DNA of 36,521 nucleotides from Candidatus Eiseniibacteriota bacterium (lineage in GTDB: Bacteria > Eisenbacteria > RBG-16-71-46 > JACRLI01), in the NCBI GenBank assembly GCA_025351485.1, contig JANXVU010000037.1, forward strand, positions 1 through 36,521, given 5' to 3'. How positions within the stretch are numbered: the first letter of the stretch is position 1; each line of letters begins with the position of its first letter. The notes under the pieces were generated by a model that had not been told where the DNA came from, ran no database searches, and saw only the letters and a program-made list of their open reading frames with translations. This document shows positions 3,800 to 32,221 of this stretch, in pieces. Both the position numbers and the translations under genes were made by a program.

Positions 3800-3911
3800 T
3801 CAAGTCTCCTTGGTGCTGCGCTCCTAGCCGCCCGGGACCGGGCACCCTCACGCCCAATGCCCAATGGTGTAGCACAAACACCTTGCAGCGGGAAACACCG
3901 GTGGAGCTTTC

Positions 3912-3978
3912 AAACAAAAAAAACACCGCCCGCTCCCCGGCGGGGATCCCTGGGATCCCGGCGGAGAAGCGGGCGGTG
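3912..3978 (-). terminator. Strong Rho-independent terminator, minus strand
   Basis: On the minus strand an 11-bp outer stem (CACCGCCCGCT / AGCGGGCGGTG, bases 3924-3934 and 3968-3978) encloses an inner GGGATCC / GGATCCC stem. It is followed directly by eight U residues, then GUUUG. The hairpin is about 55 nt long. It ends transcription that comes from the STAS-like gene (stop at 4162), leaving a 3' region of about 180-250 nt. Confidence 0.78.
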
Positions 3979-4160
3979 CTGGAAAAGCATGGTGGGAGGA
4001 GCCGCGGCCGACCGCCCCCGCGTAGGCGCAAGCTCCATCCCACCAATGTGTTGCGCGGCTCGAAGAAAATCCAAAGCCGGTCCTCGGAAAGATCCGGCGA
4101 GTTCGTTAGGCGACAACCGCCCCCGCGTCAGTCACCTCCGGTGCCTCGCCGGAAAAAGAG
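3979..4160 (-). ncRNA. Candidate structured RNA or structured 3' UTR downstream of the STAS-like gene
   Basis: Read on the minus strand, this non-coding stretch contains GCCTC/GAGGC just after the STAS stop, CACC-gga-GGTG, GCCGG/CCGGC around 4077-4099, and a 12-bp stem with one bulge at 3991-4044 (GGTGGGA, GGAGC / GCTCC, TCCCACC). A 13-base word (ACGCGGGGGCGGT in transcript sense) occurs exactly twice, 105 bp apart (4011-4023 and 4116-4128), each time in or next to a hairpin. The region ends in a strong terminator. No known riboswitch, SRP, 6S, tmRNA or RNase P signature was recognised. It could be a 3'-derived small RNA or a stabilising UTR. The helices were drawn by eye only. Confidence 0.4.
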
Positions 4161-4161
4161 G

Positions 4162-4488
4162 CTAGGGATCCCGGCAGGTCACGGGCGGAGCGGCGGGAGG
4201 CGCGTGGGCCGCGCCGCTCTTTGAATCGATCATTCGAAGGCCTTCCAGCCAGCGGTCCAGATAACGGGGCGCCCTGGAAATTACGAAGCGGTCCCGATCC
4301 CGCGCCAGGTACTCCAGCGTCGGTTGGTCGATCGAGTGCAGCGACTCCAGATCCAGGGAAATCTGCCTGTGACCGGTCAGAGCCATCTTCAGCACTCGCA
4401 CGAGTTCGACCCCGAAGGGTCCGACAGCGAGGCCTTCAACCCTGTAAACGGCGGCTCCATCGGGTTGGGAAGTCGAGATGCGAATCAT
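4162..4488 (-). CDS. Small STAS-like domain protein (anti-sigma-antagonist fold)
   Basis: A 108-residue protein. The pattern is that of a STAS domain: a first strand (AVYRVEGLAVGP), a helix (GVELVRVLKMAL), then G-RQISLDLESLHSIDQPTLEYLA, followed by a strand and helix (RFVISRAPRYLDRWLEGL). In classical SpoIIAA proteins the DLS-V--IDS-G core carries the phosphorylated serine. Here the corresponding piece reads SIDQPTLEYL, so the usual Asp-Ser pair is absent and a nearby Thr is the only hydroxyl candidate. The last 20 residues are low complexity. GGAG lies six bases before ATG 4488. A sigma-54-type promoter is about 30 bases upstream, so control by the activator encoded next door is likely. The family call comes from pattern recognition and is moderately sure. 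Confidence 0.65.
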   Translation of the reverse strand: MIRISTSQPDGAAVYRVEGLAVGPFGVELVRVLKMALTGHRQISLDLESLHSIDQPTLEYLARDRDRFVISRAPRYLDRWLEGLRMIDSKSGAAHAPPAAPPVTCRDP

Positions 4489-4517
4489 AGGTGGCTCCGG
4501 CCCATGCAGCTGGTTTC

Positions 4518-4533
4518 AGCACGATGCATACCA
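4518..4533 (-). promoter_or_regulatory. Putative sigma-54 (-24/-12) promoter of the STAS-like gene
   Basis: On the minus strand the sequence reads TTGG-TATG-CATC-GTGCT. The invariant GG and GC are exactly ten bases apart and the flanks are close to the YTGGCACG-N4-TTGCW consensus. The predicted start near 4507 gives a leader of about 19 nt with GGAG correctly placed before ATG 4488. A gene for a sigma-54 activator ends about 220 bp upstream. Confidence 0.5.
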
Positions 4534-4577
4534 AGGTGGCGGGCAACCGACGGTAAATTGGCAAGGCCATGAAAAAT

Positions 4578-4686
4578 AGCGGCTTATAGCGATCATTCCG
4601 AGCTCGTGATGCCTTCGATATCACCTAAAAATGGCGACATATAGCCTTATGACGAATTAGAGTCATCTCAGAGGCGATATATCGTC
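4578..4686. promoter_or_regulatory. Three related dyads, candidate enhancer (UAS) sites for the adjacent sigma-54 activator
   Basis: AGCGGCTTATAGCG (4578-4591), GGCGACATATAGCC (4633-4646) and GGCGATATATCGTC (4673-4686) share 10-11 of 14 positions pairwise. The last is a near-perfect palindrome around CGATATATCG. Their distances from the predicted sigma-54 start are about 70-180 bp, the normal range for activator binding. Confidence 0.4.
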
Positions 4687-4740
4687 ACTCCAACGTGGTA
4701 CTTGAAACTCATAGGAGATGCGAATTCATGTGCCAGGCGG

Positions 4741-7700
4741 CTACTGCAGATATTCCAACTTCCCGATCCGGAGCTTTCGCATCTTGGAATTCAGGGTGGT
4801 GCGCTTCAGGCCCAGGATCTCGGCCGCCCCGCCGCTCCCCGCGATCCGGCCGCCGGATCGGCGGAGTGCGGCCACGATGGCCCGGCGCTCCGCGTCGGTG
4901 AACGTGGAGGTGGATTCCAGCGGAGGCATAGGCGCCGTGCCGGCCTCGGCGTGGTGATTCCCGGCGGGAAGAGTCCCCAGGTCCACCACCAGGTCCTCCC
5001 CTTCACACAGGATCACGGCGCGACTGATCACGCTTTGCAGTTCGCGCACGTTGCCCGGCCAGTCGTACGCCAGCATGGCCGCCTCGCTGCCGGGGTCGAT
5101 CCGGGTGATGTTCTTGCCCATCTTGCGGGCCTGCTGCTGCAGGAAGTAATAGATCAGGATCCCGATGTCTTCGCGGCGCTCACGGAGCGGCGGAATCGTG
5201 ATCGGGAATACATTCAATCGAAAGAACAGGTCCGCCCGGAACCGCCCATCGCGGACTGCCTTTTCGAGATTTCGATTGGTGGAAGCGATCACCCGGGCAT
5301 CCGTCCTGAGCGTAACACTGCTGCCCACGCGCTCGAACTCCCCGGACTGGAGCACCCGCAGAAGCTTGGCCTGCACTTCCCCCGAGAGCTCCCCGATCTC
5401 GTCCAGCAGCAGCGTGCCGCCGCGGGCCACTTCGAAGCGGCCCAGCCGCTGCTCCACCGCGCCGGTGAACGCGCCCTTGACGTGGCCGAAGAGCTCGCTG
5501 CTGATCAAGGCCTCGGGCAGCGCGGCGCAATTCACGCGGATGAACGGTTGGCCGGCCCGCGAGCTCAGGCGGTGCAGGGCCTCGGCCACCAACTCCTTGC
5601 CGGTGCCGCTTTCTCCCTGGATGAGCACCACCGAATCGGCGTCCGCCACTTTCTTGACCAGTTCTCGCACCCGCGCCAGTCCCAGGCTTGCCCCCACCAG
5701 TTCGGCGAACGCGCCGGTGCCCGAGAGTTCCTCCTTGAGGTAGCGGTTTTCCTGCGCCAGCCGCCGCTCGCGCGCCTGGATCTGCATGAAGCCCCTGGCC
5801 GCCTCCAGCGCGAGCCCAAACTGCTGCGCGACGCGCGAAAGGGTATCCACGTCGGTCCCCAGGAAGGCGTCCTCCCGGGCGGAAGCCAGCCAGCACAGGC
5901 CCACCCGCCGCGAATGCACCATCAGCGGGACCAGCACCATGGTTCGGAAGCCCAGTTCGTGGAGCCGCCCCACCAGGGGATTCCACGCGGTGGTGGTGGA
6001 CATGCGGCGCGATTCTCCGGATTCCATCATTTCGGAGATCGGCGGCACGTCGGCCGGGGTGGGCCGCCAGCAATCCTCTTCGGTCAGGCTCCGAAGGTTG
6101 GTGGCCACCGGGTGCAGCAAAGCGCCCTCCATTTCGAACACCGCGGCCATGTCGGACCGGTCGAAGTGGATCAGCTTTTCCAGCGCCGGCAGGATTTCCT
6201 GAAGGATTTCCTGGGGATTGCGGTGAAGCGTCATGGCGTTGGCCAACTCCAGCAGGGTGCGTTCACGCTCGGCCAGTCTCAGGTTCTGCGCGTGGGCATG
6301 GGCGTTTTCCAGGGCCAGGGCGAACTGCTGCGCGGCCCTCGCCGCCAGGGCAAGGTCGTTGGCGGTCAGCCCCGCCGGATCGCGCGAGGCGATGAATATC
6401 ACCGCCAGCACCCGGTCCCGGCCCGGCACCGGGACGCAGGCGACGGTCTTGAGGCCCAGTTCCACCAGGCGTTGCTTGCGGGCCGTGTCGGGCATTTCGC
6501 CGGCGGTCATCCGCATCGGGCGCCCCGTCTCGATCGCCGCCCGCCCGCCCGAATCCTTCCAGCGCAGCGACAGGATCGTGCCGGGGTGCTCGGCCGGCGG
6601 GGCGGTCGTCGCCAGGGGGTGCATCCACTCGCCCTCCAGCTCGAACAGGGTGGTGCGGTCGAATTCAATCAGGCGCTGCAGGGCGGCCATCATGGTGGAA
6701 AAGAGCTCGCCGGGATCGCGGTGCTGCGAAAACGTGTTGGTGATGTCCAGCAGGTCGCGCTCGCGCTGGGCCACTCGCTGCACTTCGGCAAAGGAGCGGG
6801 CGCTCTGGATGGCCAGGCCGAACTGCCTCACGGCGCGTTCCAGCAGCTCCAGTTCGGAAGCCGGAAACGCATCCGCCTGCCTGGACACCAGGCCCAGCGC
6901 GCCCAGGGTCTGGCCGCGCAGCAGGATGGGCATGACCAGCAGGCTGCCGTATCCCTGCGCCAGCACCCAGGCCGCGCCACCCTCGGCCTGCGACCCCTGG
7001 CGGTAGACCGCCGCCCGGCCCGTGCGCAGCGCCTCGGCGACGAATGTCTCGGTGGGAACCCGCCTCTGGAACAGAACCACACGCGCCTCGGGGGGGGCAT
7101 TTGTGGCCAGCGGGGCCAGCCAGCCTTCCTCCAGCTCGAACACCATGGCCCAGTCGAAACGCGTGAGACGCTTGAGCGCCATGACCATGGACTCGAACAC
7201 TTCCCGCGGATCGAGTTGCCCCGTCAGGGCGTTGCTGAGGTCCTGGAGGTCGCGTTCGCGCCCCACCAGCCGCTGCACCTCGGCGGCGGTCCGGCTGCGC
7301 TCGATCGATAGCCCAAGTTGCTGCGCGGCCCGGGAGAGCAGATCCAGGTCCTGGTCGTTGTAGATGTGCGGGTCGCGCGAGGCCAGGGTCAGCACGGCGT
7401 GGACCTGGTCACGGATCAGGATGGGAGCGGCCATGAAGCTCTGGAGGCCGGCCTCGAACATTCCCCCGGACGGGGCGGGTTCGGTGGGCGACGCCTGCGC
7501 CCGCATCGGCTCCCGGCGCCGCACCACTCGTTCCAACTGGGAGCCGCGCCATGGGAAGGGATGGGGCAGGGTCGAGAGCAGGTGATCGGAAGCGCGCAGG
7601 TTGGAGGGGTGGAACTCATCGCCCTGGACGTCGAGGATCATGGCGCGGTCAAAGGAGACGATCGAGTTCAGGGACGCGGTGATGCTCTCGAACACCTGGC

Positions 7701-9892: not shown

Positions 9893-9922
9893 TTGTTGAC
9901 GCGGCCTCCATTTGTTAGCTTT
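9893..9922 (+). promoter_or_regulatory. Possible promoter of the deoxyhypusine synthase-like gene
   Basis: TTGTTG (9893-9898) is separated by 17 bp from TAGCTT (9916-9921). An overlapping TTGACG gives an alternative -35 with shorter spacing. The leader to ATG 9974 would be about 45 nt with a good Shine-Dalgarno. The match is modest. Confidence 0.3.
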
Positions 9923-9973
9923 CCGCCTGTTCCTGCTCTTGGAAATCCATCGTCCCGCCGCCAAGGAGCGCGC

Positions 9974-11068
9974 ATGCCGTCGCACAAGTACCTGAGCGGG
10001 CCCCGGCTCGATCCGCATCCCATCACGCCGACCACCTCGCTGGTGGAACTGGTGGAGCACACCTTCCTGGCCTACAACGCCGCGAGGCTTCGCGAAGCCT
10101 GCGGGCTGTACGCAGAAAAGATGCTGGCGGAAGACGCCACCGTGGGGGTTTCCCTCACCGGCGCGTTGACCCCGGCGGGGATCGGCATCTCGGCCCTGAT
10201 TCCGCTGATCCGCGCGGGCATGATCGACTGGATCGTCTCCACCGGGGCCAACCTGTATCACGACGCGCACTACGGCCTGGGCCTGGCCATGCACCGCGGC
10301 AACCACACCACCAGCGACGTGGTCCTGCGGGATGAGGGCGTGGTCCGGATCTACGATATCTTCTTCGACTACGATGTGCTGCTGTCCACCGACACGTTCT
10401 TTCGCAAGATGATCGAGGCGCCCGAGTTCCAGCGCTCCATGAGCAGCGCGGAGTTCCACTGGCTCGCGGGCAAGTACCTGCGGGAGCGCGAAAAGGCCCT
10501 TGGACGCGGCGACCAGTCGCTGCTCTCCGTGTGCCACCAGTGCGACGTGCCGGTCTACACCAGTTCTCCCGGCGACAGTTCCATCGGCATGAACATTGCC
10601 GGCAAGGCGCTGTTCGGGAGCAAGCTGGTGCTGGACCCCAACGTGGACGTGAACGAGACCGCCGCGATCGTGCTGGACGCCAAGCGGAGCGGCGGCTGCA
10701 GCGGCGTGCTGCTGCTGGGCGGGGGAAGTCCGAAGAATTTCGTGCTGCAGACCGAGCCCCAGATCCAGGAAGTGCTGGGTATCGAGGAAAAAGGCCACGA
10801 CTACTTCCTGCAAATCACCGACGCCAGGCCCGACACGGGTGGCCTTTCCGGCGCGACGCCTTCCGAGGCCGTCTCGTGGGGCAAGGTGGACCCTTCCAAA
10901 TTGCCGGACGCCGTGGTTTGCTACGTGGACAGCACCATCGGCCTGCCGATCCTTGCGGCCTATGCGCTTGCAAAGCACGCGCCGCGCCCGCTTCGCAGGC
11001 TGTACGCCGAGCGGGGACGGATGATGGACCAACTCAAAAAACTGGCAACGGAAGCCGGCCGCGTCTAG
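9974..11068 (+). CDS. Deoxyhypusine synthase-like NAD-dependent aminobutyl transferase
   Basis: A 364-residue member of the deoxyhypusine synthase family. The active-site element of eukaryotic and archaeal enzymes is preserved: EAVSWGK with the lysine (K304) that forms the enzyme-imine intermediate, preceded by ARPDTGG. Further family features are the STGAN segment at 89-93, HRGNHTTSD, and the [11 protein letters not shown] glycine loop at 246-256. In archaea and eukaryotes the enzyme moves the aminobutyl group of spermidine to a lysine of IF5A. Bacterial homologues have no IF5A substrate and probably work in polyamine chemistry (homospermidine-type products or a related NAD-dependent reaction). 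ATG 9974 is chosen because AAGGAG lies six bases upstream; a longer frame from 9893 lacks support. No polyamine gene is adjacent, so the substrate is open. Confidence 0.85.
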
Positions 11069-13090: not shown

Positions 13091-13135
13091 ATTCTTCTGC
13101 TGCATCGCGGCGCCGCCGTCCCCAGGAATGGAGAA

Positions 13136-13178
13136 GCCCCGGGTTGCCAGTCGGCATCCCGGGGCCTCGAGTATGGAA
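13136..13178 (-). terminator. Hairpin terminator after the small exported protein gene (minus strand)
   Basis: An 8-bp perfect stem (GCCCCGGG / CCCGGGGC, 13136-13143 and 13158-13165) with an inner GCC/GGC pairing. In minus-strand sense it is followed by TTCTCCATTCC, a modest U-tract. It can also slow transcription coming from mscL. Confidence 0.5.
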
Positions 13179-13190
13179 GCGGCGCCCTGG

Positions 13191-13508
13191 CTAATTGCGC
13201 CGGCGGCCGTTGTGCTTCAGGCGGTGGATCTTGCGGCTCTCCACGTTCTGATCGTGCGCCAGCTTGGCGTGCTCTCCCGCATCGATCTTGCCGTCGTTGG
13301 CCTTGAAGTCGCGGCGTTCCTCGCGGATTCCCCGCTGGTCCTCCCGCAGTTCGGAAGCCTCCTTGTGGGTCAGTTCTCCGCTCTTGACTCCTTCGGCAAT
13401 TCGCTCGTGCTGGCGGTGCATGCGGCGCTTGGCCGGGCCGGCGTGGGCGCTGGTGGCGGACACGGCGAATACCAGGAGCAGGGCGATCACTACGAGATTC
13501 TTCTTCAT
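13191..13508 (-). CDS. Small exported charged helical protein of unknown function
   Basis: A 105-residue protein with a clear Sec signal peptide (MKKNLVVIALLLVFAVSATSAHA). The mature part is highly charged and helical and seems to hold two related units: RQHERIAEGVKSGELTHKEA, then a DQRGIREERRDFKANDGKID segment and EHAKLAHDQNVESRKIHRLK. This layout, with a -G-L---E---L-- turn that resembles a calcium-binding or EF-hand-like loop, occurs in many small periplasmic proteins of unknown role. AAAGGA lies eight bases before ATG 13508; the longer frame from 13547 would bury the signal peptide and is not used. The gene stands alone and convergent with mscL. Its function is not known. Confidence 0.7.
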   Translation of the reverse strand: MKKNLVVIALLLVFAVSATSAHAGPAKRRMHRQHERIAEGVKSGELTHKEASELREDQRGIREERRDFKANDGKIDAGEHAKLAHDQNVESRKIHRLKHNGRRRN

Positions 13509-13754
13509 GTCTGGGATCCTTTCGCGGTGGAAGAAGCCGGACGACATCGTTGGCAGGCTAGAGCATTCGCTGTGCCATTTTCAAGCAGGCAGTCCGTCTC
13601 CCGTGCCTCCACCGCAACCTTCATGCCATGCCTCGCGCCATCCGCCAAGTTCCTTCTGGCGGCGAGACTTGCCGAATCGGGCATGCTAAAGTTAGCGCTT
13701 GCTGGCCCCTCCGTGCCGGCCCGGCTGTACCCCCAGGAACACGAGGTGTACCGA

Positions 13755-14917
<1,163 letters not shown>

Positions 14918-14921
<4 letters not shown>

Positions 14922-15448
14922 GCCGGATCATCGCGGTCTACGGAAGCGCCACCGTCACCCAGGACTCCGAGGAGGCGCGTCTGGCCTTCCACGTGGGGGT
15001 GCGGCTGGCCCAGCGCGGGGCGGTGGTGATGAACGGCGGCTACGGCGGCATCATGGAAGCCGTGAGCCGGGGCGCCCGTGAAACCGGCGGCAAGGTGGTG
15101 GGCGTCACCGTGGATGGGTTCCTCGACCGCAAGGCCAACGAGCACCTCACGGTCGAACATTCCGTGCCCGACCTCCTGGAGCGGCTGCGCGTGCTCACCG
15201 AAGAGCCCGATGGGTTCCTGGCTCTGCCAGGCGGGATCGGCACCGCGGCGGAAGTCTTCCTGGCGTGGAACCTGCTTTCCCTGGGGCTGCGCCGGCCGGC
15301 GCCGCTGGTACTGATGGGGAACGCGCTGGAAACGATCCTGGATCGGAGCAACGACAAGATGGGCATCCCGCCCGCGCAGTACGACCTGATCCACTTCGCC
15401 CACGATCCCGACGAGGCCGTGGACCTGGTGCTCGGAGGCACGCGATGA
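14918..15448 (+). CDS. LOG/TIGR00725-type Rossmann-fold protein (possible nucleotide phosphoribohydrolase)
   Basis: A 176-residue protein of the lysine-decarboxylase-like (LOG) superfamily. It has the N-terminal strand IIAVYGSA, the glycine loop NGGYGGIMEAVSRGA (39-53) and the hallmark PGGIGTAAEVFLAW (104-117), in which PGG-GT--E is the active-site signature of enzymes removing the base from nucleoside 5'-monophosphates. GTG 14918 overlaps the upstream stop (GTGA), so translation is coupled with the kynureninase-like gene. Its own stop overlaps the next start (ATGA). Why it sits between two kynurenine-pathway genes is unclear; it may act on a nucleotide or ribosylated intermediate, or simply share the transcript. 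Confidence 0.8.
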
Positions 15449-16074
15449 AGATCCACGACATCACGCCGCCCGTATCGGTGAACACCGCCGTGTGGCCCGG
15501 GGACGTTCCGTTCACGATCCATTCCACCATGAGCCAGGATCGGGGACACTCGGTGAACGTGTCCGAAATCCGGTCCACTGTGCACCTGGGCGCCCACGCC
15601 GACGCGCCGCTCCACTTCGATTCGCGAGGGTTTGACATCGCCCGGGTGCCGCTGGACTTCTACATCGGGCCCGCGCGGGTGATCGAGCTCGTCGGGGTCA
15701 AGGAAGTGGCCGCCACGGACCTGGCGCTGGTCCCGTGGGCGCAGACCGAGCGGCTGCTGATCAAGACCAAGTCCCGCTACCAGGCCAGCGAGTTCGACGA
15801 CCAGTTTCCGCACCTGACCGAAGAGGCCGGCGCCCTGATCGCCTCCAAGGGCATCCGCCTGATCGGCGTCGACGTGCCCTCGGTGGACGCCTGCCACAGC
15901 AAGAGGCTCATGAACCACAAGGCTTTCTTGAAGGCCCGCACCGCCATCCTTGAAAACCTGGACCTGAGCCACGTCGCCCCCGGGGTGTACGAGCTGATCG
16001 CGCTGCCCTTGAAGCTGGTGGACGTGGACGGCAGCCCGGTGCGCGCGGTCCTGGTGGAGCGGGAGCCCGCGTGA
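15445..16074 (+). CDS. kynB: Cyclase-family hydrolase, kynurenine formamidase-like
   Basis: A 209-residue metal-dependent hydrolase of the cyclase/KynB family. Signs are the WPGDVPF segment at 17-23, the metal-binding motif HLGAHADAPLH (H47, H51, D53, H57; family consensus H-G-H-D-P-H), YIGPARVIEL, and later GVDVPSVD and NHKAFL. KynB hydrolyses N-formylkynurenine to kynurenine, the substrate of kynureninase encoded at the start of this operon. Length is normal for the family. The start ATG overlaps the LOG gene stop by four bases and its stop overlaps the next GTG, giving a fully coupled series. No tryptophan 2,3-dioxygenase is seen in the window. Related cyclases act on other amides, so the kynurenine role depends partly on context. 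Confidence 0.82.
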   Translation: MKIHDITPPVSVNTAVWPGDVPFTIHSTMSQDRGHSVNVSEIRSTVHLGAHADAPLHFDSRGFDIARVPLDFYIGPARVIELVGVKEVAATDLALVPWAQTERLLIKTKSRYQASEFDDQFPHLTEEAGALIASKGIRLIGVDVPSVDACHSKRLMNHKAFLKARTAILENLDLSHVAPGVYELIALPLKLVDVDGSPVRAVLVEREPA

Positions 16075-17159
16075 CGGTGGGCGTGCAACGGCTCCCGGCG
16101 TGGCAGACCCTCCTTTTGGGCGCCTGCCTTGGTCTCCTGGGGTGCGGCGACAAGACTCCGGTGGACTCCCGCATCCATCACGTCGAGCGGCTGCAGGACT
16201 ATCAGTATGTCCGGCGGACCTTCTTCTATTTGACCTCGGACCCTACGGAAAATATCGATCTCCGGACGGTTAGCGTTTGGGTGGACGACCGGTCGGCGAG
16301 CGGCGACGTCACTACGAAGCGCCCTGGAATCGCCTACCTTGATCCCCGCGCAGCGGTCCCCGACTCGATTCGCTATTTCGGCAACTTTCGGTTCGAGACT
16401 GGATTTGCCGTCCGTCAGGCGCTCAGCGCCCGCCGCGGAATCGATGGCGTTTTCATCGAGTTGGATCGGCAACTGGACGAACAGTCCGTTCTCGCGGTGA
16501 CCTATCGGCACATGGACGGGAGTTCCGTCGGTGTGGCGACCGGCGACTCGCTGGTGGTCAAAATGCTGCGCCCGAACAAGGAACTTCTGGGGATCGACGT
16601 TTCAGGGAACTTCCTTTCGCCTGGAAGGCCTGGCGGGTACTGGAATTCAACGCTTCCCTACGAAATGAAGAATGTCTACCGCCTCGACTACACCGACATC
16701 AACCCGGACTCCTTCCAGTTGGCAATCTACGACACCCGCTCGAACCCAAGGGCCGATACGCTGGGCAATCCGGGCAGCCGGATCACGGAAATTGTCGGGC
16801 TGGACAATGAAGTGATCCAGGGATCGAGCTATCAGTTCGGGATCGGGGGAAAGGGCGACGGCAAGGTGGACAACGACTTCGACAGGGAGCGGACCTTCGT
16901 GGACTATACCCGGGGGCTGATCTTGTTTCCCGATACCAGGCCGTTCTTCTATCAACCGGATCCGGGCGCGGGGGAGGCCACCAGGGACCGGGACCACCGG
17001 CCGGCGCTGCTGAGCCGGGCCCAGTCGGACACCCTGATCTACCTGCAGCGGGACTACAATCCGAACGCCCTGGTGAACCGCTACTATTTCGAAGCCAGTT
17101 TCTATCTTCGGTCCAACCTGAAGCCAGGCGGCTTTTTGAGGCATTTCTTGAGTCCCTAG
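16071..17159 (+). CDS. Short lipoprotein resembling a segment of the cell-surface protein SprA
   Basis: A 362-residue predicted lipoprotein. The signal has a lipobox (LGLLGCGD). The body has features recalled from SprA, the very large outer-membrane protein of Bacteroidota gliding/type IX secretion: YQYVRRTFFYLTSDPTENID, a -V-V-VDDR- strand, IAYLDPR, LAVTYRH, and LVVKMLRP-KELLG. Full SprA is over 2000 residues, so this resembles one module standing alone. The end (YYFEASFYLRSNLK) is a clean stop, with no continuation in other frames in the 134 bp before the next gene. GGGAG lies five bases before GTG 16071, which overlaps the formamidase stop by four bases. The relation to the kynurenine-type genes is unknown. 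The SprA resemblance is from memory and needs a profile search. Confidence 0.6.
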   Translation: MTVGVQRLPAWQTLLLGACLGLLGCGDKTPVDSRIHHVERLQDYQYVRRTFFYLTSDPTENIDLRTVSVWVDDRSASGDVTTKRPGIAYLDPRAAVPDSIRYFGNFRFETGFAVRQALSARRGIDGVFIELDRQLDEQSVLAVTYRHMDGSSVGVATGDSLVVKMLRPNKELLGIDVSGNFLSPGRPGGYWNSTLPYEMKNVYRLDYTDINPDSFQLAIYDTRSNPRADTLGNPGSRITEIVGLDNEVIQGSSYQFGIGGKGDGKVDNDFDRERTFVDYTRGLILFPDTRPFFYQPDPGAGEATRDRDHRPALLSRAQSDTLIYLQRDYNPNALVNRYYFEASFYLRSNLKPGGFLRHFLSP

Positions 17160-30535: not shown

Positions 30536-30568
30536 CAGGAATGACCGGCCCGGCCGGGCGGCTCGAGC

Positions 30569-32221
30569 TTACTCGAACCGGACCCGGTAGAAGCGTTCCT
30601 TGCCCGTGGGGTGAAGGTGGAATCCGGAAATGTTCCGGGGCTGGGCGAACAGCGCCGAGGTGTGCACCAGCGGCACCCACGGAGCGTCGTCGTGGGCCAC
30701 CTGCTGCGCCTGCTCGTAGAGCGCCGTGCGCTTGGCCTGGTCCGACTCGTTCTGGGCCTCCACCACGATCTGGTGGTACTTCTCGCTGCGGTAAAAGGCC
30801 AGGTTCTGCGCCGGGAGGCGCGTGGCGGTCTTGTCCAGCAGCGTGAACAGGAAGTTGTCCGGGTCGCCGTTGTCACCGGTCCAGCCCATGATGCACATGT
30901 CGTGTTCGCCGGCCTGGGTCTTGTCCAGGTAAGTCTTCCACTCGGTGGAGACGATCTCGGCGTCGATCCCGACGGACTTGAGATTCGCCTGGATGGCCTC
31001 GGCCACCTTTTGGGGCTCGGGCACGTAGGGGCGGGGAACGCTCATGGCCCACAACTTGGTCTTGAACCCGTTGGGGAAGCCCGCCTGCTTCAGGAGTTCG
31101 CGCGCCCTGGCCGGGTCGAACGGGTAAGGCGTGATGGACTTGTTGTAGCCCCACACCACCGGGGGCATTGGGTTCACCGCGGCCACCGCCAGGTTGCGGT
31201 AGAGCGTCTCCACGATGGCCTTCTTGTCGATGGCCAGGTTCACGGCCTGGCGCACCCGCGGATCGCCGAACGGCTTCTTGTCGTTGTGCATGGCCAGGTA
31301 GCAGATGTTCATGCCGGCCTGGGTCAGGAGCACCAGGTCCTTGTTGTCGCGGATGGGCTGCACCTGGTCGGGGGCGATTCCGTCCATGCCCTGCAGGTTG
31401 CCCTTCTTGAGCTCCAGGTAGCGGACGGTGTTGTCGGGGATGGAGCGGAACACCAGCCTGGCGATGGCGGGCGTGCCGTTCCAGTAGCCCTCGTTGCGGG
31501 CCAGCGTGATGTGGTCGTCCTTCACCCACTCTTCGAACTTGAACGGGCCCGTGCCGACCGGGTGCTTGAAGAACTCCGGTCCCCACTTCTTCACTCCGGT
31601 CGGGCTCACGATCGAGGTGAAATTCATGGCCAGGTTGGCCAGGAACGGCGCGTTGGGGTGGCGGAGCGTGAACACCACCGTGGAATCGTCCACGGCCTTC
31701 ACGTCCCTGATGATGCTGCCCATGGACATGGATTGCCAGTAGGTGTAAGGCCCGCCCACGTTGTTGAACGGGTTGTGGAACATGGAGTCCTGCCGGGCCA
31801 TCGAGAACACCACCGCGTCGGCGTTGAACGGCGTGCCGTCGTGGAACTTCACGCCCTGGCGCAGGTGAAAGGTCCAGGAGAGGTTGTCGGGAGTGTGTTC
31901 CCAGCGGGAGGCGAGTCCGGGTTCGATTTCCGTGGTGGAGTCGGTGTACTGCACCAGGTTGTCGTAGATATTGTCGCACACCTTGTGGGATTCGCCGTCG
32001 GTCTCGTGCGCGGGGTCGAGCCCGGGGGAATCGCCGCCGCGCCCCATGACGAACGTGGGACCGTCCGCCGCCGCTCCGCCGCTCTTCGAGCCGCCCTTGC
32101 CGCAGCCGGCCGCGAAAGCCAGGAGCGAAATCAGGAAAAGGATCGGCAGTTGCTTGATGGCCAGCGATGAAACCAGAGAAATCGAGGCGAAAACCCGCCG
32201 CAGGCGTAGGGATTTTGTCAT
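30569..32221 (-). CDS. Peptide-type ABC transporter substrate-binding lipoprotein (SBP family 5)
   Basis: A 550-residue extracytoplasmic solute-binding protein. The N-terminus has an unusually long leader (about 39 residues) before the lipobox FAAGC. Family signs are LDPAHETDGES-KVCDNIYDNLV, LRQGVKFHDGTPFNADAVVFS and VGTGPFKFEEW, then NEGYWNGTPAIARLVFRSIPDN, RQAVNLAIDKKAIVETLYRN and the C-terminal lobe MGWTGDNGDPDNFLF. Family 5 proteins bind peptides, nickel, haem or glutathione; the ligand is not predictable here. It is the first gene of a three-gene operon with two permeases and no ATPase genes. TAGAGT ends nine bases before the start and no Shine-Dalgarno is present, so a near-leaderless mRNA is likely. 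Confidence 0.92.
   Translation of the reverse strand: MTKSLRLRRVFASISLVSSLAIKQLPILFLISLLAFAAGCGKGGSKSGGAAADGPTFVMGRGGDSPGLDPAHETDGESHKVCDNIYDNLVQYTDSTTEIEPGLASRWEHTPDNLSWTFHLRQGVKFHDGTPFNADAVVFSMARQDSMFHNPFNNVGGPYTYWQSMSMGSIIRDVKAVDDSTVVFTLRHPNAPFLANLAMNFTSIVSPTGVKKWGPEFFKHPVGTGPFKFEEWVKDDHITLARNEGYWNGTPAIARLVFRSIPDNTVRYLELKKGNLQGMDGIAPDQVQPIRDNKDLVLLTQAGMNICYLAMHNDKKPFGDPRVRQAVNLAIDKKAIVETLYRNLAVAAVNPMPPVVWGYNKSITPYPFDPARARELLKQAGFPNGFKTKLWAMSVPRPYVPEPQKVAEAIQANLKSVGIDAEIVSTEWKTYLDKTQAGEHDMCIMGWTGDNGDPDNFLFTLLDKTATRLPAQNLAFYRSEKYHQIVVEAQNESDQAKRTALYEQAQQVAHDDAPWVPLVHTSALFAQPRNISGFHLHPTGKERFYRVRFE

Follow-up and report, generated by a model that had tools for sequence, protein, structure and literature searches.

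A predicted lipoprotein carrying one extramembrane segment of SprA, and a possible partner elsewhere in the genome

The SprA cap and a gene for one SprA segment

SprA/Sov is the translocon of the type 9 secretion system (T9SS). According to a review, its cap consists of two folded inserts, one located between strands 7 and 8 and the other between strands 11 and 12; the first surrounds the second, and together they form an extracellular lid (PMC9127263). The extracellular side of SprA is given as over 150 kDa in a 2025 paper (PMC12611786). In F. johnsoniae, the contact between a cargo sorting domain and SprA inside the pore buries about 1,000 square angstroms, and the SprA cap is named in a figure legend as helping to bind this domain (PMC10994853). 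Lipoproteins that act with SprA are also described, namely SprE/PorW and a PPI subunit (PMC10994853, PMC9127263), but these are TPR and isomerase proteins rather than copies of SprA, whereas the protein reported here, P0001, matches a SprA segment only. A search for a detached SprA cap in the literature found none; it covered open-licence papers, part of its results were swamped by unrelated words, and we claim novelty only as far as that literature reaches.

The window, meaning the whole stretch of 36,521 nucleotides that was analyzed, belongs to a genome of 3.44 Mb in 186 contigs that is 98.55% complete. The gene for P0001 occupies positions 16071 to 17159 of the forward strand, stop codon included, and consists of 362 open codons closed by TAG. 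Its GC content at codon positions 1, 2, and 3 (0.60, 0.44, and 0.78) is gene-like. The encoded start has a basic n-region, a hydrophobic stretch, and a lipobox, and is thus a predicted lipoprotein-type signal peptide reaching Cys25 (16071 to 16145, forward strand), with an alternative lipobox cysteine at residue 19; both residues fit a PROSITE PS51257-type pattern. Residues 37 to 344 (16179 to 17102, forward strand) make up the SprA module, and sequence comparison leaves a C-terminal tail of 18 residues beyond it (17103 to 17156, forward strand). P0001 had no match in Pfam at E values up to 1 and none to the TIGR04183 sorting domain at the same threshold. The original prediction had described a protein of 362 residues with a normal stop, its own lipobox, and segments that recall SprA (RRTFFYLTSDPTENID, VDDR, LDPR, and LVVKMLRP), and all of this is borne out by the translation, the lipobox as a pattern match. 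Overall, P0001 is a predicted lipoprotein bearing one SprA module, which would be lipidated and may be exposed at the surface.

The GTG start codon of P0001 lies within a GTGA that overlaps the TGA stop of an upstream arylformamidase gene (TIGR03035; 15445 to 16074, forward strand) by 4 bp at 16071 to 16074, in agreement with the translational coupling proposed earlier. The arylformamidase start is placed by an ATGA overlap at 15445 with a LOG/lysine-decarboxylase-like gene (PF03641; 14918 to 15448, forward strand), whose own start is placed by a GTGA overlap at 14918 with a kynureninase-like gene (13776 to 14921, forward strand). The start of the latter is approximate, as the TIGR01814 match begins at residue 217 of an open reading frame spanning 13128 to 14921. 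P0001 is therefore the fourth and last gene of a run joined by 4-bp overlaps, a longer run than had been stated. The description of this run as a kynurenine-type operon stands as regards placement, with both kynureninase and arylformamidase present; a functional tie of P0001 to kynurenine metabolism was considered and set aside, since nothing was found for it beyond the overlaps. The LOG/lysine-decarboxylase-like gene, which overlaps both of its neighbors, has a weak PADLOC match to PsyrA. Elsewhere in the window, positions 9893 to 11068 of the forward strand encode a deoxyhypusine-synthase-type homospermidine biosynthesis protein (NF001980, 537 bits).

The sole NCBIfam match of P0001 is TIGR04189 (SprA/Sov), covering profile positions 389 to 543 of 2319 with an E value of 2.9e-7 and 28.1 bits, far under the cut-off of 200 bits. 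The genome search for a full SprA that had been suggested found one on contig C161 (2004 aa, 498 bits for TIGR04189). Residues 37 to 344 of P0001 align with residues 327 to 638 of this SprA at 50% identity over 314 aligned positions (E 1.7e-92). The alignment is confined to a single place in SprA, with the next matches at E 0.83 or worse, so the idea that P0001 is one of several SprA repeats does not hold. An AlphaFold model of P0001 built from 31 sequences has a mean pLDDT of 77.2, and in Foldseek this model retrieved just two chains at E up to 0.001, both of them solved F. johnsoniae SprA (E 2.2e-12 and 3.3e-12). VIA-align placed the model on 6h3j (Z 12.8, 268 residues, rmsd 5.3), 8gl8 (Z 11.4, 265 residues, rmsd 3.5), and 8gl6 (Z 11.2, 287 residues, rmsd 7.3), compared with Z 3.9 for the best of the other chains, and the match falls within residues 230 to 710 of the solved SprA chains. 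The structural comparison that had been set beforehand was thus positive by both methods. Direct phmmer comparison of P0001 with the solved chains gave nothing at E up to 1; the link to them is made via the genome's own SprA and via the predicted structure. By alignment and by model, the likeness to SprA goes beyond chance, and SprA is the one clear structural match of P0001.

P0001 is homologous in sequence and predicted fold to one segment of SprA/Sov but lacks the barrel, the N-terminal domain, and insert 2, and it has a lipoprotein-type signal of its own. It is not itself a SprA; rather, it is a paralogue of a single SprA segment placed in a new context, and the original description of a stand-alone, single-module SprA-like protein is upheld. 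A frameshifted or broken SprA was rejected as an explanation, because a search of the window at E values up to 0.1 gave no second stretch of SprA sequence. An assembly artifact was likewise rejected, as the gene lies mid-contig and is only 50% identical to SprA.

Of the large extramembrane segments of SprA, the first is the one matched by P0001. From its position and size, together with the account in the review (PMC9127263), the module is most likely cap insert 1. The number of strands ahead of the module does not add to this assignment. In a model of residues 40 to 720 of the genome's own SprA (pLDDT 69.7), the module is preceded by twelve strand segments; a count of seven is reached only by omitting the four ahead of model residue 142 and merging 263-272 with 275-282. 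Strand parity was therefore rejected as support for a location between strands 7 and 8, the count of seven being dependent on these choices.

A second detached segment and the likely T9SS of the genome

A second SprA-profile match in the window genome is a 691-aa frame on contig C69 (L042, 7625 to 9664, reverse strand). Its product combines a signal-peptide-like start, a SprA segment, and a T9SS type A sorting domain, and it aligns with residues 809 to 1364 of the genome's own SprA at 43% identity over 569 positions. It corresponds to the second large extramembrane segment of SprA, whose position and size suggest cap insert 2; subject to that positional assignment, insert 2 exists separately in this genome as the C69 protein. 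The TIGR04183 match of its tail is barely over the cut-off (24.5 bits against 23). There are 90 TIGR04183 matches in the genome at E up to 0.01, of which 79 are over the cut-off, and a T9SS with many cargos is therefore likely. The C69 protein resembles T9SS type A cargo in bearing this C-terminal domain over the cut-off, as does a copy in genome G033 described below. It differs in that its passenger is a piece of the translocon itself, and P0001 differs in having no TIGR04183 match. The genes for P0001 and the C69 protein are on separate contigs and carry different signals. The C69 protein is nevertheless the likely partner of P0001, and the hint in the original prediction at a partner was useful to this extent, the likely partner being a detached insert 2 elsewhere in the genome.

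Two other kinds of frame with a SprA-profile match were observed. Contig C27 of the window genome encodes a 1292-aa frame (L010, L043) with a short match (604 to 651) at 30557 to 30706. The same profile region is matched by frames of 1136 to 1203 aa in the phylum of G115, and all of these frames possibly represent a separate SprA-like outer-membrane family.

Distribution, origin, and integrity of the detached copies

The search for insert 1 covered 118 genomes: 47 from the window's phylum (39 with a match), 5 from that of G112 (4 with a match), and 66 others (60 with a match). A detached insert 1 was found in two of the 118, the window genome and G167 (contig C606). The window genome is thus the only one of the 47 in its phylum in which one was found, and the set contains no other member of its family. 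Several short insert 1 frames (for example, in G013, G017, G019, G025, G036, G037, G039, and G198) were discounted, as their coordinates indicate that they are seemingly contig edges or split matches. Insert 2 was searched for in 80 of the 118 genomes, 68 of which had a match, and it is detached in four: the window genome, G033 (contig C89), G162 (contig C5), and G167 (contig C606). In three of these four, only the first half of insert 2 is present. These four of 80 include both of the genomes in which insert 1 is detached; the chance of this is 0.0019 for two genomes under an assumption of independence that ignores relatedness. In G033 and G162, insert 2 is detached but insert 1 is not. Among 39 genomes of the phylum of G053, searched with the SprA profile at E up to 1e-7, no detached insert 1 or 2 was found away from contig edges, as judged by coordinates.

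Genome G167 is of another phylum, distant from the window genome, and its two genes are convergent neighbors. Its insert 2 gene (L049, about 3835 to 4896, forward strand) encodes a lipobox-pattern match, and its insert 1 gene (L049, 5657 to 4905, reverse strand) begins off contig C606 and stops right after the module; this genome is 9% contaminated. A beta-propeller gene with a sorting tail adjoins the pair. In G033, the product of the detached gene (L044, 6781 to 8154, forward strand) begins with a signal-peptide-like stretch, continues with insert 2, and ends in a sorting tail; it is 51% identical to the SprA of G033 and 27% identical to that of the window genome. The G162 gene, from another phylum, encodes the first half of insert 2 (L046, 2240 to 3262, forward strand) and lies downstream of an APH-like gene on a contig of 3.7 kb. 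The hydrophobic stretch of its product ends in LAAC, which fits only a simpler form of the lipobox and not the PS51257-type pattern. Apart from the adjacent pair in G167, no neighbors shared among the detached genes were found by Pfam in ten neighbor proteins.

Trees were built from a subset of loci (38 rows for insert 1 and 36 rows for insert 2) rather than from every matching genome. In the insert 1 tree, P0001 and the SprA of the window genome are sisters (100/99), as are the detached insert 1 and the SprA of G167 (100/99). In the insert 2 tree, the C69 protein is sister to its own SprA (100/100), the G167 copy is sister to the SprA of G167 (99/77) within a 100/94 group, and the G033 and G162 copies fall inside the groups of their own families (100/98 and 100/97). 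BLAST places the G162 copy closer to the SprA of G115 (55%) than to the SprA in its own bin (46%). A minimum of two label changes for insert 1 and four for insert 2 is forced by the starred branches, most simply read as the same number of separate origins. Gene conversion between a copy and SprA could mimic repeated origin. The clade formed by P0001 and its own SprA indicates that P0001 derives from SprA. Therefore, an ancestral single module is rejected, and the suggestion that P0001 might inform on how the giant SprA arose is not supported: it is a copy of a segment of the lineage's own SprA.

Half of the residues of P0001 differ from those of its own SprA, yet the conserved positions are largely kept. 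In a first alignment with 29 other sequences, P0001 retains all 20 columns of 95% conservation and 42 of the 49 of 70% conservation, and its own SprA keeps the same numbers. At the 95% columns of a second alignment, insert 1 is retained at 14 of 15 positions in P0001 (14 in its own SprA) and 13 of 15 in G167 (14 in the SprA of G167). For insert 2, the corresponding counts are 25 of 25 in G033 (own SprA 25), 23 of 27 in the C69 protein (own SprA 23), 26 of 26 in G162 (own SprA 25), and 24 of 25 in G167 (own SprA 24). Taken together, the six detached copies keep 125 of 133 conserved cells, and the SprA proteins of the same genomes also keep 125 of 133. No remnants of the SprA barrel were found at E up to 0.1 in the sequence flanking each copy, which for G162 is bounded by the 3.7-kb contig and for the G167 insert 1 by the contig end at which the gene starts; within the window, no further SprA sequence lies beside P0001 at this threshold. 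The kept columns and the lack of further SprA sequence around the copies speak against drifting fragments.

Possible functions of a putative detached cap

In two genomes from two phyla, two different extramembrane segments of SprA exist as stand-alone proteins, and each of these lies closest to the SprA of the genome that encodes it. We propose that P0001 is a detached cap insert 1 of the lineage's own SprA, paired with the insert 2 of the C69 protein as a lid apart from the barrel, and assign this reading a probability of about 0.47. The SprA segment would have been duplicated out of SprA, gained a lipoprotein signal, and come to be expressed as the last gene of the kynureninase operon. The sorting domain on the C69 protein leads us to expect its export by the same T9SS, and P0001 would most likely work with it. 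The proposal that the free pair could re-form the lid on the cell surface builds on the two-insert lid described in the review (PMC9127263) and on the cap's role in binding sorting domains. Such a lid may engage the normal ligands of the cap, whether cargo sorting domains, carrier-cargo complexes, or the translocon itself. As the cap is named as helping to bind the cargo sorting domain (PMC10994853), a free cap could hold cargo or carrier-cargo complexes after export. Both the pairing and the function of the pair are our inference from these data.

The main rival is a surface decoy, in which detached cap segments would imitate the outward-facing surface of SprA and sequester phages, toxins, or contact-dependent inhibitors for which SprA serves as receptor. 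Such a role would fit the resemblance of the copies to the SprA of their own lineage and the export or lipoprotein-type signals on those copies whose start is present, and recurrent separate origins would suit an arms race. However, searches of open-licence papers showed none that names SprA as a phage or toxin receptor, and PADLOC at E up to 0.001 gave no match for P0001 or any of the four detached inserts 2. Two upstream genes of the operon gave only superfamily-type PADLOC matches (SspA/DndA and PsyrA), and a search of viral contigs found no relative of P0001. We consider a decoy unlikely.

Free insert 1 may instead act as a regulator or assembly factor, docking on the barrel rim or on the insert 2 of SprA so as to gate, stabilize, or compete with the native cap. 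The arrangement in which insert 1 surrounds insert 2 within SprA, described in the review (PMC9127263), means that a free copy could swap in, and at the conserved columns P0001 is as complete as its own SprA. However, this role leaves unexplained both the detached insert 2 in each of the genomes with a detached insert 1 and the presence of insert 2 alone in G033 and G162, and we regard it as improbable. The least likely explanation, and one we hold to be very improbable, is a SprA segment that was duplicated into the operon by chance and drifts without function: the single case among the 47 genomes of the phylum, the seemingly fortuitous operon placement, and the departure of the C69 protein at 4 of 27 columns of 95% conservation (a number shared by its own SprA) would fit it, but the frame and signal of P0001 are intact at 50% divergence with all 20 such columns kept, the module boundaries are clean and without barrel remnants, and there are parallel cases, two of which have both segments.

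Beyond the pairing of P0001 and the C69 protein, it is possible, if doubtful, that at least two phyla independently made the lid of the T9SS translocon into a two-piece extracellular device, lipid-anchored or exported through the channel from which it derives, that serves at the cell surface, away from the barrel, as a free cargo receptor or decoy. That the same segments became detached separately in several lineages, in two cases together, suggests that they are useful in themselves. A piece of the translocon bearing the sorting tail of that translocon's own cargo also represents an unusual gene history. To our knowledge, it is hard to tell apart what the SprA cap and the barrel each contribute to type 9 secretion, as both are part of one giant protein. 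Natural cap halves of manageable size would let the cap be tested alone, against cargo sorting domains, PorV-type carriers, and phages.
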